From: a virus
Length of the DNA: 31,287 bases
IMG/VR virus record: IMGVR_UViG_3300042905_000399
Span: 1-31,287 of that record
Strand: one strand, 5' to 3'
Shown here: positions 12,241 to 19,174 of the stretch, one piece after another
How positions within the stretch are numbered: position 1 is the first letter of the stretch
Layout: each line of letters begins with the position of its first letter
Program-made: the position numbers and the translations under genes
Notes under the pieces: model-generated
Database searches by the model: none
What the model was told of the DNA's origin: nothing
Seen by the model: only the letters and a program-made list of their open reading frames with translations

Positions 12241-12740
12241 TTCCGGCCCCAGGTGCGCGTCCCAAACCAAAATCCAATAATCCCGCCCAACATGGCCATT
12301 TCGTCGGGACTAAAAATAATATCCGAGTACCGCAGCACATCGTCCATACTCTTAATCATTCCAGGGTTTGTGTACAGGTAGTAACACAAAAACAAATTGA
12401 TCAGCACCAACTCCAGCACGAAGATGTACGTCACCGTCGGGCGCACGGTGCCGACGTAGTTGGCGACCCACTGGCTGGCCCTGTCCAATACCTTTTCATC
12501 GTGCTTGAGCGCGGCTTCCGTCATCTGCGCCTCGGTCTGCATCATGACCTGATCGGTGCGGATTTCTTCAATCTTCTGCTGCGCGGCATATCCTTGAGCG
12601 GCCAGGGCCAACTCACGCTCGTTTTGCATCCTGGCCAGGGCAAGCTCATGCTTTTGGTCGGCCTTGTTTTGGAAGTACTCAAGCAGTTTGGGCAGCCCGG
12701 AAATAAGCAGGCCGCCGAGGGTAGAGATGAGGGACAGCAT
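12237..12740 (-). CDS. Putative holin, 3TM GTA-type, 167 aa
   Basis: Residues 1-20 are hydrophobic (MLSLISTLGGLLISGLPKLL). Residues about 25-85 are a charged coiled coil with repeated Gln/Glu/Lys. Residues about 95-122 (VRPTVTYIFVLELVLINLFL) and about 147-165 (MAMLGGIIGFWFGTRTWGR) are membrane segments. The RP...TY segment and the closing GFWFGTRTWGRK match what I know of the holin-of-3TMs family (GTA_holin_3TM). It sits directly before the lysozyme, sharing GTGA with it, and follows another small membrane gene with a TAATG junction, so a role in opening the inner membrane at lysis is well supported by context. The coiled-coil insert makes it longer than small holins. Confidence 0.78.
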   Translation of the reverse strand: MLSLISTLGGLLISGLPKLLEYFQNKADQKHELALARMQNERELALAAQGYAAQQKIEEIRTDQVMMQTEAQMTEAALKHDEKVLDRASQWVANYVGTVRPTVTYIFVLELVLINLFLCYYLYTNPGMIKSMDDVLRYSDIIFSPDEMAMLGGIIGFWFGTRTWGRK

Positions 12741-13048
12741 TATCTTTTCTCCATTTTGGCTTCAATGATTGCAATCTTCTGGCGGTTGTACTGGATGTCA
12801 TCGCGGTTCTTTTGAATCTCAGCCGACAGGTCTTGCCGCAGCCGCTCACGCGCCAACTCTGCCCCAGTGTTGGTGGCCTGCTTGTTGTCACTTGTCACCA
12901 CAAGGCTGATCTTGCTGTTCAAAATCGTGACCTCATGGCTCAGGTTTGACAGCGCCGACATGAGATACACCACGCAGCTAAAAAGCAGTGGCAGCAGAGC
13001 AAACGCGATCTTTTCGATCAATGCGCTTTTTCCGGTTTCTTCAGCCAT
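12740..13048 (-). CDS. Small membrane-anchored coiled-coil protein in the lysis block, 102 aa
   Basis: The stop overlaps the holin start as TAATG. A single hydrophobic segment lies at about 12-32 (IAFALLPLLFSCVVYLMSAL), preceded by a short charged N-terminus. Residues about 40-102 form a heptad-like coiled coil (ELARERLRQDLSAEIQKNRD). One N-terminal membrane anchor plus a periplasm-facing coiled coil is the shape of an inner-membrane spanin. However, no paired outer-membrane lipoprotein gene is seen nested in or after it. It could also be an antiholin or a lysis accessory protein. I give no firm function. Confidence 0.72.
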   Translation of the reverse strand: MAEETGKSALIEKIAFALLPLLFSCVVYLMSALSNLSHEVTILNSKISLVVTSDNKQATNTGAELARERLRQDLSAEIQKNRDDIQYNRQKIAIIEAKMEKR

Positions 13049-13049
13049 T

Positions 13050-13529
13050 TTATCTCCCTTGTGCCGTGGCTTCCACGATGAACCAAACAGTTACGCCAAC
13101 AGTGACAAACACCACCAACGCGCCGATCAAAAGGATGAACAACTCGTCCAACTCCTGCTGCCGTTTCTTTGCGGCTTCTTTCTTACGCCTCGCTGCATGG
13201 GCTGCGTCTGCTTCCATCCGCTGTGCCCGAGCCGCAATCCGCATCCAGACATCCATCTTGTTTGCCTGGAAAAACAGCATCTTGATCTGTTCCTCAAACT
13301 GCTTGGCCTGCTCAATGGCCATTTCCAGTTCAAGCGCCTTGCCTAAAGCGGACCCTTTGAACTCACCCTGCTGCGACTTTTGAACAACTTCGATGGCGTC
13401 GGCTTTGGCATCAAAATATTTACCCAGCACCGGCCCGAGCGAGGTGACATCATCAACCGTCGCGGCAACCTTTTTTACAAGCTCAACCGCTGACGATATT
13501 GCAGCAAGGGCGGTGATCGGGTCGATCAT
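13050..13529 (-). CDS. Membrane protein with N-terminal MIDPITA motif, 159 aa
   Basis: The ATG at 13529 overlaps the stop of a 31-codon frame as ATGA. The protein starts MIDPITALAAISSAVELVKK, a pattern I know from conserved proteins of environmental phages placed near lysis or tail genes. Residues about 65-128 are charged and helical (AARRKKEAAKKRQQELDEL). A single membrane span follows at about 130-152 (FILLIGALVVFVTVGVTVWF), leaving a short C-terminal tail. It lies just before the two other small membrane genes of the lysis block. The first ten codons or so are duplicated 750 bases upstream (14252-14280). The function is unknown; a lysis or membrane role is inferred from the span and position. 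Confidence 0.75.
   Translation of the reverse strand: MIDPITALAAISSAVELVKKVAATVDDVTSLGPVLGKYFDAKADAIEVVQKSQQGEFKGSALGKALELEMAIEQAKQFEEQIKMLFFQANKMDVWMRIAARAQRMEADAAHAARRKKEAAKKRQQELDELFILLIGALVVFVTVGVTVWFIVEATAQGR
13501..13529. repeat. Direct repeat copy A flanking the oxygenase insertion
   Basis: 29 bases matching 14252-14280 with two mismatches by eye. This copy covers the first codons of the intact 159-residue gene. The two copies lie in the same orientation, about 750 bases apart, and enclose the AT-rich oxygenase gene. Confidence 0.85.
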
Positions 13530-13621
13530 GATGCGCGTTGGGCCTGATGCCCAGACGAAAAAAAATTTACCAGTGCAATGCGGCTGGCTTCCTCAAGAAC
13601 ATCGTCTAATACAATCAACAT
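13526..13621 (-). CDS. Possible 31-codon ORF, remnant or linker peptide
   Basis: An ATG frame at 13621 overlaps the oxygenase stop by seven bases and ends with a TGA that overlaps the next ATG as ATGA. The peptide begins MLIVLDDVLEEASRIA, then becomes polar. Two tight junctions argue that it is translated and couples the oxygenase to the downstream gene. The VLDDVL opening resembles the first strand of 2OG-oxygenase-type proteins, so it may be the leftover start of a lost gene. No further evidence; low confidence. Confidence 0.35.
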   Translation of the reverse strand: MLIVLDDVLEEASRIALVNFFSSGHQAQRAS

Positions 13622-14175
13622 TTTGTATATACCAAAGCAAAAGTTAATCTGTAAAACGAGGCAATATATGATTGAGGGCGGATTGTATGAGGTATCTTTG
13701 CGTCAAATGCAATTATTCTGCCGGGGGTATATGCGCTGGCAAACCTGATATTTTTACCAGCCTCATCATAGAACAGCGTTTCCCCATGCCAGCCATCTTG
13801 CCAGTCTAGATTTACGTAGTACAAAACAACTTTATCCTCTGGGTGCGTATGAATAAAATTAACATCCGCAGGTGTGGATAAATTTAAAACAGCTTTGCTA
13901 AGCGTATGCCCGACGAGCTCTTGCCCGACCGGGGTTTGCTGTAGCCGCTCTATGTATTCAAGCGACTTTAAATCATCTTCAGAAAAAGCAGAGTGTAAAA
14001 ACTCATATCCTTTTTTCTCTGGCGTAACACTGTCTGCCCAACCAATTTTAAAAAACGAGTTTCTCATAAACTGATAAACCCATGAACGATACGACATGTC
14101 AAACACGCTATCGTACAGCCGCAGCTTGCGTCCGTTGTCAACTTCAGCTTCAATAATTGTTTGGTTTTGCAGCAT
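13615..14175 (-). CDS. 2-oxoglutarate/Fe(II)-dependent oxygenase (prolyl-hydroxylase-like), 186 aa
   Basis: These enzymes couple decarboxylation of 2-oxoglutarate to hydroxylation of a protein, nucleic acid or small molecule. The C-terminal half shows the double-stranded beta-helix core: NFIHTHPEDKVVLYYVNLDW (first iron ligand His109), GETLFYDE at 131-138, PGRIIAFDAKIPHTIRP with distal ligand His163, and Arg176 as probable 2OG anchor. The usual HxD reads His-Thr-His here, so the acidic ligand is unclear; Glu113 or Asp114 might serve. The start ATG has no clear ribosome binding site, unlike its neighbours. Hand-counted GC is about 42% over 13621-14160, against 57% and 65% in two sampled lines of the upstream ATP-grasp gene. 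With the flanking direct repeat this points to recent acquisition. The substrate is unknown. Confidence 0.85.
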   Translation of the reverse strand: MLQNQTIIEAEVDNGRKLRLYDSVFDMSYRSWVYQFMRNSFFKIGWADSVTPEKKGYEFLHSAFSEDDLKSLEYIERLQQTPVGQELVGHTLSKAVLNLSTPADVNFIHTHPEDKVVLYYVNLDWQDGWHGETLFYDEAGKNIRFASAYTPGRIIAFDAKIPHTIRPQSYIASFYRLTFALVYTKC

Positions 14176-14217
14176 TTGAATTGGTTATTTTTTGGTGTAC
14201 GACCGTGTTTTACTCGA

Positions 14218-14280
14218 CTACAATCTGAACATACTCATCGCAAAAGATACGGCAGCAAGGGCGCTTATCGGGTCGATCAT
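14218..14280 (-). pseudogene. 20-codon remnant of the MIDPI-type gene
   Basis: The ATG at 14280 overlaps the TctC-like stop as ATGA, the junction expected for a real gene. The frame starts MIDPISALAAVS, closely matching the first twelve residues of the 159-residue protein (MIDPITALAAIS), then diverges and stops after 20 codons. I read it as the broken or displaced 5' end of that gene, left behind when the oxygenase segment entered. It could instead be a decayed paralogue. Confidence 0.6.
14252..14280. repeat. Direct repeat copy B flanking the oxygenase insertion
   Basis: Matches 13501-13529 at 27 of 29 positions in the same orientation. It encodes the start of the truncated MIDPI frame and abuts the TctC-like gene. 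Confidence 0.85.
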
Positions 14281-15101
14281 GGTATTGGTATGAGCGCATA
14301 TTCTCGCAGCAACTGGCTGCGAAGTGTTGCAGCATCTGCTTTAAAAAACGGTTGTGGCAGGGCAGCCATATTCTCAGCGGTCACGACTTTCTTCGCGGCT
14401 TGTGCGACCTTGCCATTCTCATTTCCGGCTTTGACAAACAAAGCAGTCCAAGAGAAATCAGGAACACCCGTTTGATCAAGCCGCCCCAGCGAACGCAGGT
14501 GGCCACTTTGAACCAAGGCCGCCGCAGAACTGGTTGCGCCTCCAAATGCGTAGTCCAGAATGCCAGACGACAGGTCTGTGTACAGTTGGGTTATCTGCTT
14601 GTAATTTATTTGCTGCGTGTTGGTGCCGATGGTCTTGTCCAAAATGTGCATGGACGCATTCGCCGACGGGTGTGCAGTACCGCCCTTGAGGCCGTTGTTG
14701 GCCTTGGAAAGAGCCACCAGCCCCGCCACATCCTTGACCGGAGACTTGGCAGGCACCAAGATGTTCATCGGCGCATGGGTCAACCCAACGACCGGCACGA
14801 ACTCGCTGATGGGGTCAAAGTCTTTTTGCGGCAGCGTTTTGGCCACAAAAGGAACGGCGAAGCTGCCGATCAAGATGTGATCCCCGCTGAGTTGGTTGAA
14901 GGCCCGGAATCCGACAACACCGTTCCCGCCTGGGGCGTTTGTCACGACTACGTCCACCCCAAGCTCTTTGGCCAGCAGCGGCTGGAGAAACCTTGCCGCT
15001 TGATCCGACAGGGAGCCTGGGCCCGATGTGGTGACGATGGTCAGCGTTGACGCAAACACATTGGTCGAGATCAAAGCCAACGCCAACAGAAACCGCTTCA
15101 C
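14277..15101 (-). CDS. TctC/Bug-family periplasmic solute-binding protein, 274 aa
   Basis: The GTG start overlaps the ATP-grasp stop as GTGA. Residues 1-17 are a Sec signal peptide: MKRF, a hydrophobic core, then NVFA before the mature start, with no lipobox Cys. The mature chain shows the fold signatures of tripartite tricarboxylate transporter binding proteins. These are TSGPGSLSDQAARFLQPLLA, NAPGGNGVVGFRAF, the MNILVPAKSPVKDVAGLVAL segment, GTAHPSANASMHIL, then YTDLSSGILDYAFGG and LVQSGHLRSLG. At 274 residues it is shorter than the usual roughly 320. No TctA or TctB membrane partner is nearby, so it would have to use a host transporter or do another periplasmic job. The family is huge in Burkholderiales and rare in phages. 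GC is like the neighbours, so it is well settled. Confidence 0.9.
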   Translation of the reverse strand: MKRFLLALALISTNVFASTLTIVTTSGPGSLSDQAARFLQPLLAKELGVDVVVTNAPGGNGVVGFRAFNQLSGDHILIGSFAVPFVAKTLPQKDFDPISEFVPVVGLTHAPMNILVPAKSPVKDVAGLVALSKANNGLKGGTAHPSANASMHILDKTIGTNTQQINYKQITQLYTDLSSGILDYAFGGATSSAAALVQSGHLRSLGRLDQTGVPDFSWTALFVKAGNENGKVAQAAKKVVTAENMAALPQPFFKADAATLRSQLLREYALIPIP

Positions 15102-15988
15102 AGTGCAGCCTCCATCGCGTCAAACTTTGCGTTGACTTCGGCCTCGGTTGCACCCACGCCGTTGACCCGGATGAAATCTCCGCCCTTGTCTTTTGCGTCC
15201 GTGCGAGGCAGCAAACCAAACGATTCAATCAACCGCCGCTTGCTTCTCGGGATTGGAGAGCCCCAGTACGAACGATTGACGAACACTGCCGGGGCTACGT
15301 CTGGGATGGGCAAGCCAACCATGTGAGCCAGGGCCGCATCAAGGCACGGGTACTTGTTCGCCAGACCCTGCGTGTAAACCTGCGGGGCCCGTGGGTTCCA
15401 GTCGATTGCGCACCATACGCCTTGGTAGGACAAGAACTGAATGTCGTGCAGGCCGCCAGTGATGTTGAGCCGCTTGCAGGCGGCGGTTATCTGCTCACAG
15501 ACGCCGACATACTCATCCGGCGTTGCCATGCGCAGTTCCGCAGGCTTCTTGGTGTCCAGATGCTTGTGCCGTTGGGCGGCGATCACATGGATGTCGCCAG
15601 ACCTTCCCACAGAAAAATGGATGTCCAAATCTTCCACTGGAAAGCCCAGATGCGGCTGATGCACCCACCCGCCCGTGGCGGAGTTGCGGGGCTTTGCAAG
15701 CGTGCCCGAGGGGGCGTCTTCCGGCCTCTCAATGACAACCGTGGGCAACGTGGCCAAGCCCGTCTCGTGAAGACGATCACGATTCAGGATTTTTTCCAGG
15801 GACGACGCCGGCATGTATGCCGGGTGCCCACCCACGCTGACTGCCGTGTGATCGGAGACAAGCAGAACCGAATCTGCCCCGTCTTTGAAAGGCGTTACCC
15901 CGATCCCCAGCCTGTCGAGCGTGGGCTTATACGCCGCAAGACCAATCCTTTGGTCTGCAAGTGGCATATAAACATTTACTGCGGCCAT
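15098..15988 (-). CDS. ATP-grasp ligase-like protein, 296 aa
   Basis: ATP-grasp enzymes join a carboxylate to an amine or thiol through an acyl-phosphate. Visible motifs are the N-terminal turn LEKILNRDRLHETGLATLPT (about 64-83), ATP-binding LAKPRNSATGG with Lys99 and a Gly loop at 106-107, and the metal site HDIQF (Asp182) with AIDWNPRAP (Asp196, Asn198, Arg200). This is the order expected for the fold. The N-terminal domain is short, which fits small amino-acid or peptide ligases better than biotin-type enzymes. The ATG has GAGG upstream and overlaps the DUF4376 gene by 13 bases; the 3' end shares GTGA with the TctC-like gene, so the two are co-translated. The substrate is unknown. It may modify a virion, cell-wall or small-molecule target. 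Confidence 0.82.
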   Translation of the reverse strand: MAAVNVYMPLADQRIGLAAYKPTLDRLGIGVTPFKDGADSVLLVSDHTAVSVGGHPAYMPASSLEKILNRDRLHETGLATLPTVVIERPEDAPSGTLAKPRNSATGGWVHQPHLGFPVEDLDIHFSVGRSGDIHVIAAQRHKHLDTKKPAELRMATPDEYVGVCEQITAACKRLNITGGLHDIQFLSYQGVWCAIDWNPRAPQVYTQGLANKYPCLDAALAHMVGLPIPDVAPAVFVNRSYWGSPIPRSKRRLIESFGLLPRTDAKDKGGDFIRVNGVGATEAEVNAKFDAMEAAL

Positions 15989-17548: not shown

Positions 17549-18325
17549 TCACGGCGTTCCGTATGCGGTCACGTTGGCCACCATTATGAAGTTGCCAGAC
17601 GAGTCTATTGAGCCAATTGTTGTCGCGCCATACTTAAATACCAGCTTGCCTCCAGACTCTTCAACAGTAAAGTTGGTAGTGGCTAACTTGGTGGCGTTCG
17701 TTGCATTCGTCGCGTTCGTTGCATTCGTTGCGTTCGTTGCGTTTGTCACAGCCGTGGCCCCAATGGCTGCAACGATGTCTGCTGCCGAGGCGACAGAAAG
17801 CGCCGACGTACCATTACCGCGCAATATCCCGCCGTTGGTAAACGATGAAGCTCCAGTGCCTCCGTCAGCTACGGCAAGGTCGGTTGCAAGCGTTAGGCTG
17901 GATAGGTGATTGTTCTGAAACGCAAAGTTGGTTCCATCCGACCAGACTGTCACGGTTTTGCCTGCCGGGATTGCCACTCCAGCGCCAGCAGCCGTTGTGT
18001 TGCCAAGCACCGTCGAATTGTAGATGGTTGCTGTATAGGCACTGGCGTTGTAGATGACGTAGGTCTTTTCTGCCGGGGGTGCATACACCGCGAAGTTGGC
18101 ACCCGTCGAGGTGGTCAGAGCAATCGCCATGTGCCGCGCTTCATCCGGAGCGCCATTTGCGGCCGTAAACGCCTGATTGGCAGCAATCACAGATACAGAG
18201 ATGTACCCGGCAATCGACGACTCGATCAACGTGCCGAGGTTGGTGTTGGTTGTGTTGCCCCACGTACCGGCTTGATCACCCGTGGTGATAAGCTCAATTC
18301 GCAGGCTGGGGGAGTAGGTGGACAT
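17549..18325 (-). CDS. Tail-fibre protein with NAT repeat, 258 aa
   Basis: The ATG has GAGGA upstream. Residues 3-43 (YSPSLRIELITTGDQAGTWG then TNTNLGTLIE) form a conserved N-terminal block found in many fibre-type proteins. A beta-rich middle follows, with GGTGASSFTNGGILRGNG near 155-172. Six tandem Asn-Ala-Thr triplets come next (about 195-212), and the chain ends in a short beta domain holding GSIDSSGNFIMVANV. That last element is the one found before S74-type or lectin tips in many fibres, but here the protein ends soon after it. It is probably a fibre or fibre-anchoring subunit. It sits in a row with three other fibre genes. Confidence 0.8.
   Translation of the reverse strand: MSTYSPSLRIELITTGDQAGTWGNTTNTNLGTLIESSIAGYISVSVIAANQAFTAANGAPDEARHMAIALTTSTGANFAVYAPPAEKTYVIYNASAYTATIYNSTVLGNTTAAGAGVAIPAGKTVTVWSDGTNFAFQNNHLSSLTLATDLAVADGGTGASSFTNGGILRGNGTSALSVASAADIVAAIGATAVTNATNATNATNATNATNATKLATTNFTVEESGGKLVFKYGATTIGSIDSSGNFIMVANVTAYGTP
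17693..17747. repeat. Six 9-base tandem repeats encoding NAT
   Basis: Units read close to ttcgttgcg on the plus strand with a few third-position changes. Gain or loss of a unit keeps the frame, so the fibre can change length without breaking. Confidence 0.85.
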
Positions 18326-18334
18326 AGATGTTCC

Positions 18335-19174
18335 TCACTGGGAATTGTTGATATTCTGCCAGTTTGCGTTTTGAGCGGTAACTATTTTTATCCACCCACC
18401 CAGCCCGAAGCTGTCGGCCAGGACCGCGTTCTCAGACACGGCCACATTGAACCCGGCCTGCACAGTGCGGATGTCGTTGGCGTTCAGGTTCTCGATGACA
18501 CTGCCAATAAACCCAGCCACAATGGTCTCGACAGATGCCGCCCCAAAGTTTTCAACGACGGTGTCCACAAAGACGTTAACAATTGCAGCGGCGTCCTCAA
18601 CCGTCATCCCCTCTGTCACAGCCTGGGCGAACTGAGCGGCGATGGCCTGAATGTCGTTCATCGTCATAGCCTCAGACAAGGACTGAGCAAACTGGGCGGT
18701 GATTACAGGGGTGTCATTGAGGTTGGCGTTTTCAATGATGGATTGCCCAAAGTTGGACTGCTGAACACTGGCATCGGCCACCTCCAAAATGTCTTCGGTG
18801 CGGGTCTGGCCAAAGGCAAAGAAGACGTTCTGGGTATCGGCAAGGTCTGCGTTCTCAGTGACAGATTGGGCAAACTGAGCCGAGATGGCAATGACATCTG
18901 CCGGGTTGGAGTTCTCGCTGATGGATTGCAGAAACGTCGAGGCTTGGGTGCTGGCGTCGTCGGCTGTAAACGGCTCATTGATGGTGGCAATAAACAGCGC
19001 GTTGCCTGTGATCTCAATGTCGTTCTCAGTGATGACCTCAGTGATGGATTGCAAAAAGGCAGAAACCTGAGTACTGGCGTCGGCCAAAACAATATCTTCA
19101 GTAATAGCAAAAGAAAAACTTCCCCCCGCAAGAGACGCAAACGGGGTTTGGGCGAAGTTAGATATTCCAAACAC
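18335..19174 (-). CDS. Fibre-type protein built of about eleven 20-residue repeats, 279 aa
   Basis: The start is GTG at 19174, eight bases after the previous stop, with GGGTAAG upstream. After a 25-residue leader the chain is a series of units near 20 residues long that end in a hydrophobic pair plus Glu. Examples are NANLNDTPVITAQFAQSLSE, AMTMNDIQAIAAQFAQAVTE and NSNPADVIAISAQFAQSVTE. I count eleven units from about residue 27 to 248, followed by a distinct tip (SFGLGGWIKIVTAQNANWQN). Asp at position 6 and Phe near 14 are the most constant. No known family is certain; the repeat suggests a rod or solenoid. Its place among fibre genes suggests a tail-fibre shaft. Confidence 0.75.
   Translation of the reverse strand: MFGISNFAQTPFASLAGGSFSFAITEDIVLADASTQVSAFLQSITEVITENDIEITGNALFIATINEPFTADDASTQASTFLQSISENSNPADVIAISAQFAQSVTENADLADTQNVFFAFGQTRTEDILEVADASVQQSNFGQSIIENANLNDTPVITAQFAQSLSEAMTMNDIQAIAAQFAQAVTEGMTVEDAAAIVNVFVDTVVENFGAASVETIVAGFIGSVIENLNANDIRTVQAGFNVAVSENAVLADSFGLGGWIKIVTAQNANWQNINNSQ

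Follow-up and report, generated by a model that had tools for sequence, protein, structure and literature searches.

A probable layered mosaic joint around an oxygenase-like gene ahead of the lysis block of a tailed phage

Gene layout and composition of the locus

The window analysed here is the full length, 31,287 bases, of virus record IMGVR_UViG_3300042905_000399. It carries tail-fibre and endolysin genes along with others of phage type. The minus strand holds nearly all genes of the window and every gene at the locus described below. An ATP-grasp-like gene (15988-15098; 59.1% GC, GC3 0.68) is followed by TctC, a TctC-like periplasmic binding protein gene (14277-15101; Pfam TctC PF03401, E-value = 1.2e-17; 55.8% GC, GC3 0.64). 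These two genes, at 14277-15988, are found adjacent in phages down to 32–35% identity (relative loci L003 and L127-L129). The retention of a TctC-like periplasmic binding protein in a phage tail region is odd.

The TctC stop codon TGA at 14279-14277 overlaps an ATG at 14280, which opens a 20-codon open reading frame (14218-14280). An AT-rich spacer at 14176-14238 includes the end of this short frame and is followed by OXY (13615-14175), a 186 aa 2OG-Fe(II) oxygenase-like gene with 41.5% GC and a GC3 of 0.40. A 31-codon open reading frame at 13526-13621 overlaps the OXY stop and, as ATGA, the start of MIDPI (13050-13529; 53.1% GC, GC3 0.62), which encodes an uncharacterized 159 aa protein of phrog_32327. 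MIDPI is the first gene of a conserved pre-endolysin block; the order on its 3′ side is a 102-aa gene, a 167-aa gene and the endolysin. Relatives differ in the 102-aa gene (12740-13048): L001, L012, L013 and L120 have it, and it is cleanly absent in L003-L007.

The enclosed segment, positions 13531-14252 (722 bases), shows 41.8% GC versus 50–60% for the phage overall. An AT-rich insert of this length had been recognized in the original prediction, and composition calculated per gene agrees with it: GC and GC3 both set OXY apart from TctC, the ATP-grasp-like gene and MIDPI, the GC3 of OXY being 0.40 versus 0.62–0.68 in these neighbours. The data support OXY as a compositionally foreign gene. 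The spacer contains no promoter-like match, nor does a terminator-like match lie between OXY and MIDPI; overall, the number of such matches is about that in shuffled sequence.

OXY gives a weak match to PF13640 (E-value = 0.02), a domain matched in 6 of 16 family members with a best E-value of 1.3e-4. Residues H109, H111, E132 and H163 are invariant in the 16 OXY-family sequences and would be the set that binds iron. The protein is therefore placed, as a prediction, in the 2OG-Fe(II) oxygenase superfamily, with putative 2-oxoglutarate-dependent catalysis. Compared with the L082 homolog, pN is 0.10 and pS 0.88, and because of these values and the conserved His/Glu/His set the gene appears to be functional. 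OXY also matches a PHROGs family labelled DNA endonuclease V (2.2e-10), a label that is probably wrong for this fold. The OXY family displays H-x-H-P before the sheet (H109 and H111), where many relatives carry H-x-D/E.

The duplicated gene start and the two joints

The first 29 bases of MIDPI (13501-13529) recur in the same orientation 751 bases upstream, at 14252-14280, with 27 of 29 positions identical. This direct repeat had been predicted, and it is borne out: when the window is shuffled 100 times with its dinucleotides preserved, no match to the 29-mer with three or fewer mismatches occurs, and one-strand matches in 20 Markov-shuffled windows peak at 17–20 of 29. At 84% identity the repeat extends to 43 nt (13488-13530 and 14239-14281, spacing 751). 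The upstream copy opens the 20-codon frame (14280-14218; MIDPISALAAVSFAMSMFRL, stop), which is MIDPI-like over approximately its first 42 nt (14280-14239) and unrelated beyond. The original prediction placed an ATGA junction at both copies. Both are present: at the upstream copy the ATG overlaps the TctC stop, and at the downstream copy the partner is the 31-codon frame (13621-13526) and not the OXY stop.

The upstream copy was also predicted to be a 5′ remnant of MIDPI. L014 and L004, among others, have a MIDPI start identical (29/29) to its first 29 bases, and L120 has one that differs at a single base. In a scan of all viral contigs the 29-mer, with C or T at base 9, was found in nine contigs. 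Eight of these have it at the beginning of a MIDPI frame, which in one case runs into the end of the locus, and in the ninth, the 66-kb contig IMGVR_UViG_3300042516_002421 (contig 002421), it is the relic. The upstream copy is thus a true MIDPI start, but of an allele other than that of the window's own MIDPI, which reads ATCACC where the relic reads ATAAGC and is common to L033 over the first 42 nt. The two copies are different alleles, each from other phages, and therefore point to two parents; simple duplication is for that reason disfavoured. L014 and L120, which carry the relic-type MIDPI start, are also the nearest relatives in TctC (98–99% aa identity). The spacer (14176-14238) has no match in the loci examined except contig 002421, and a 22-nt exact probe taken from it matched contig 002421 alone among viral contigs.

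The left joint lies at 14271-14280 and consists of ATGATCGACC, 10 nt common to the TctC 3′ flank of L014 and the MIDPI start. Homology of L014 to the window stops at 14271. After TctC, L014 reads ATGATCGACCAAGTGC and L082 reads ATGACCGACCAAATC; further readings of this flank are CCATGATCGACCAAGTGC (L014), CCATGACCGACCAAATC (L082) and CCATGACTGAACAAAAC (L122). In L082 and L122, TctC overlaps an oxygenase start as ATGA, and that ATG opens MTDQIAQ and MTEQNAP, respectively. The interval from TctC to MIDPI is occupied by a 303-aa tail-repeat gene in L120 and by three small open reading frames in L014. Since the old TctC flank holds the same ATGATCGACC as the MIDPI start, a crossover there would yield the TctC-relic joint of the window. 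As a guess, the ATGATCGACCAAGTGCTTTAA of L014 may be a relic of an oxygenase start, with 11 of 12 bases in agreement.

The right joint involves a second gene. A gene of 160–164 aa (OXY2), similar to the 31-codon frame of the window, comes after OXY in L083-L086 and L088-L105, overlaps OXY by 7 or 10 nt and begins MLIV-D-VLD or similar; L087 shows the OXY2 start only, at the contig end. An OXY2 after OXY is not shown in L106-L119, L082 or L122. The overlap of the 31-codon frame with the window's OXY is the same as the OXY/OXY2 overlap of these tandem relatives, and by its sequence this frame is the start of a truncated, putative second oxygenase gene. The window's OXY2 breaks off at ATCAGGCCC, where L096 and L103 read ATCAGGCCCGA, and L120 reads ACAGGCCCAACGTGCATC ahead of its own MIDPI. 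The window passes from OXY2 of the L096/L103 type to a leader of the L120 type through CAGGCCC (13546-13540), 7 nt common to both; homology of L096 to the window stops at 13540 and that of L120 starts at 13546. The matches at the joints are short (7 and 10 nt), and the parents are represented by relatives rather than by the true parents. The tandem OXY-OXY2 cassettes of L083-L105 display a conserved overlap and also a coding end just 5′ of OXY, which may belong to a third gene.

Relatives of the locus and the variable slot

At least 552 relatives of MIDPI occur in viral contigs. The best 80 of these loci were retrieved and, with the loci obtained through OXY and TctC, give 91 in which MIDPI is matched from its first residue. 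The upstream copy is present in 3 of the 91, all from contig 002421, at 27 of 30 positions. None of the other 88 has an upstream match better than 20 of 30 over the up to 2,500 nt compared; 82 of them have 750 nt or more of DNA on that side and 65 have the full 2,500.

Contig 002421 matches the window base for base on both sides of the MIDPI ATG, for 6,572 nt ahead of it and 285 nt beyond it. The 100% identity drops at 13244 and on the other side reaches 22676, so that the whole scar is inside a shared block of about 9.4 kb; outside this block, the matched pieces are only 68–94% identical. Both records share the scar block at 100% and therefore constitute one observation of the scar, not two. 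The tail-fibre/TctC/OXY block appears to have moved recently between phages, an assembly effect being less likely. Mis-assembly, in which reads of two phages were wrongly joined, can also produce this pattern of a fully identical block between flanks of 68–94% identity. As the source of the scar it is, however, very unlikely: the joints are well inside the shared block and in both records, full genes are kept in frame, and the OXY-OXY2 overlap agrees with that in other contigs.

For the 26 loci in which MIDPI is at least 85% identical and more than 300 nt of upstream DNA is available (contig 002421 left out), mean identity to the window per 30-nt step is 0.21–0.30 upstream of the MIDPI ATG and 0.77–0.92 downstream. 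At the ATG edge itself it is 0.25, the chance level, just upstream versus 0.89 just downstream. The upstream DNA of loci with more than 150 nt falls into 20 clusters. Such an abrupt change of relatedness at a gene boundary, where the partners differ between the two sides, is that of a mosaic joint. Of the presumed parental arrangements, OXY-OXY2 (L083-L105) and the L120-type leader with MIDPI are found separately in other phages; TctC joined directly to MIDPI was found in none of the loci examined. The original prediction expected relatives without the oxygenase in which the TctC stop overlaps a single MIDPI start as ATGA, and this is not borne out: none was found by the TctC profile (9 loci), by the 29-mer (9 contigs) or by the pattern over the loci examined.

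A parallel joint at a gene start is found in the same slot. L013 carries the tail-repeat leader and first bases of L005, followed by a different open reading frame, and a similar tail-repeat start joint is found in L014, where the start is fused to another open reading frame, and, in decayed form, in L003. The tail-repeat gene is intact in L005, L006 and L120. It is situated inside the TctC/MIDPI slot in L120 (3240-4151) and far upstream in the window (18335-19174).

Among known phage genomes, MIDPI and OXY each match two records, at less than 60% identity, and there is no match for TctC or the ATP-grasp-like protein and nothing like the whole stretch. Genome contigs scanned with OXY gave no relative. 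Literature searches on mosaicism at gene boundaries, recombinases, morons and oxygenase/TctC auxiliary genes turned up none that deals with this phage group.

Proposed origin of the arrangement

The locus is likely a layered mosaic joint in a variable slot of a tailed phage, flanked by the tail-fibre/TctC region on one side and the MIDPI-lysis block on the other, and formed by successive short-match exchanges near gene starts. Three steps would account for it, the numbers serving as labels and not as an established order. In step 1, a MIDPI start of the ATAAGC allele would have been joined to the end of TctC via the shared ATGATCGACC; no relative with TctC joined to MIDPI was found, so this step is without an observed intermediate. 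In step 2, OXY and the tandem OXY2-start DNA would have entered after about 42 MIDPI bases. In step 3, OXY2 would have been cut after about 75 bases and joined via CAGGCCC to a MIDPI leader of the other allele, a joint that the alignments support at base level and that would have restored an intact MIDPI and lysis block. Homologous recombination of the phage or the host, acting on short matches, probably made the exchanges, and selection would have kept those that left MIDPI and the lysis genes intact. The two short open reading frames are most likely leftovers, and the structure is most likely a record, not a device. A further reading, that gene-start joints are the rule in this phage group, with start regions linking swapped genes and relic frames kept as ATGA chains for ribosome hand-on (TctC to relic, and OXY through the OXY2 relic to MIDPI), is improbable.

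The original prediction had a moron entering by recombination at a gene start. The scar and the foreign gene stand, but one clean insertion does not, because the right joint is in a truncated OXY2, the MIDPI alleles differ and a flanking promoter and terminator are absent. L120 and L014, with 98–99% identity in TctC and 91–96% in MIDPI, have no oxygenase, and the extra open reading frame is in this respect moron-like.

A different reading takes OXY as an old resident after TctC, the intruder being the 105 nt of MIDPI relic and spacer, which replaced the first codons of OXY (MTDQIAQ... in L082). In L082 and L122 an oxygenase follows TctC through ATGA, and the tree places the window's OXY in one clade with these two (100/100). 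L014, with 98% identity in TctC, keeps ATGATCGACCAA, much like the oxygenase start of L082. Since the oxygenases of L082 and L122 also follow TctC, OXY may have occupied this slot earlier, with only its ends remade. Several observations argue the other way and leave this reading possible but doubtful. The window's OXY ends YTKC and overlaps OXY2, as in the tandem cassettes, but those of L082 and L122 end LTKNP and have no OXY2. L082 and L122 are each other's nearest relatives (97/88), GC3 is 0.40 in the window versus 0.47–0.55 in these two loci, and the relatives closest by TctC, L120 and L014, lack the oxygenase. Identity to the window is higher in L122 than in L082 for TctC (73 vs 64%) and the ATP-grasp-like protein (87 vs 58%) but lower for OXY (75 vs 81%). 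The mixed nearest relatives, the tandem-type end and the lower GC3 therefore fit a separate import of OXY. A target-site or tandem duplication, in which the target at the MIDPI start was copied on entry of an element and the copies later drifted, would explain direct repeats in the same orientation that bound a foreign gene. This is highly unlikely: the upstream copy matches the MIDPI allele of other phages at 29/29 and the neighbouring MIDPI at 27/29, and the right joint lies 10–17 nt outside the repeat, in OXY2/leader DNA. A search of the insert for a transposase, a homing nuclease and terminal inverted repeats gave none, nor does an inverted repeat bound it; only OXY and the OXY2 start are inside. 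An origin by transposition was rejected, the flanking copies being two alleles at home in different phages.

The scar, read as a layered mosaic joint, belongs to known phage mosaicism, of which it is a well-resolved further case; joints at gene boundaries are a familiar feature of phage mosaics. A near-precedent in print is mycobacteriophage Island3 of cluster I, whose genes 67/68, compared with Brujita, are described as showing a gene bounded by two copies of a gene end of about 60 bp, an arrangement attributed either to recombination of the copies with each other or to recombination with an unknown partner (PMC3029335). In both cases an extra gene in one phage lies between two copies of a short gene end. 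In the Island3 account, however, it is a 3′ end that is shared, and Brujita shows the single-copy state (PMC3029335), whereas the window has a shared 5′ end, copies that belong to different alleles, and a second gene relic. A single-copy empty site, unlike in the Island3/Brujita case, was not found in the relatives examined.

Short boundary sequences and relaxed homologous recombination are given as sources of phage mosaicism (PMC3029335, PMC3945230), and phage recombinases acting on diverged sequences are described as making such exchanges, illegitimate joining being rarer (PMC3945230). Module joints at short matches near gene boundaries are common to these descriptions and the window (PMC3029335, PMC3945230), but the matches in the window are 7–10 nt pieces of coding starts, not dedicated boundary sequences. 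Morons are described as typically flanked by a promoter and a terminator, and an extra gene of odd composition in one phage, absent from near relatives, resembles them (PMC3029335). OXY differs in that no promoter-terminator pair flanks it and in being a piece of a tandem oxygenase cassette.

The locus is a readable fossil of gene exchange in which both joints are placed within 7–10 bases and the parent types can be named, and the relatives show one start codon, that of MIDPI, as the fixed edge of a variable slot. The placed joints, named parent types and fixed edge therefore make this phage group a useful natural set for the question of whether short gene-start matches, or random joining followed by selection, make phage mosaics. 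No general view is changed by the scar, which represents ordinary phage gene shuffling.

A short repeat of another kind is found elsewhere in the window. The 258-aa gene at 17549-18325 contains a 9/18-bp tandem repeat (17694-17743) that codes for repeated NAT.
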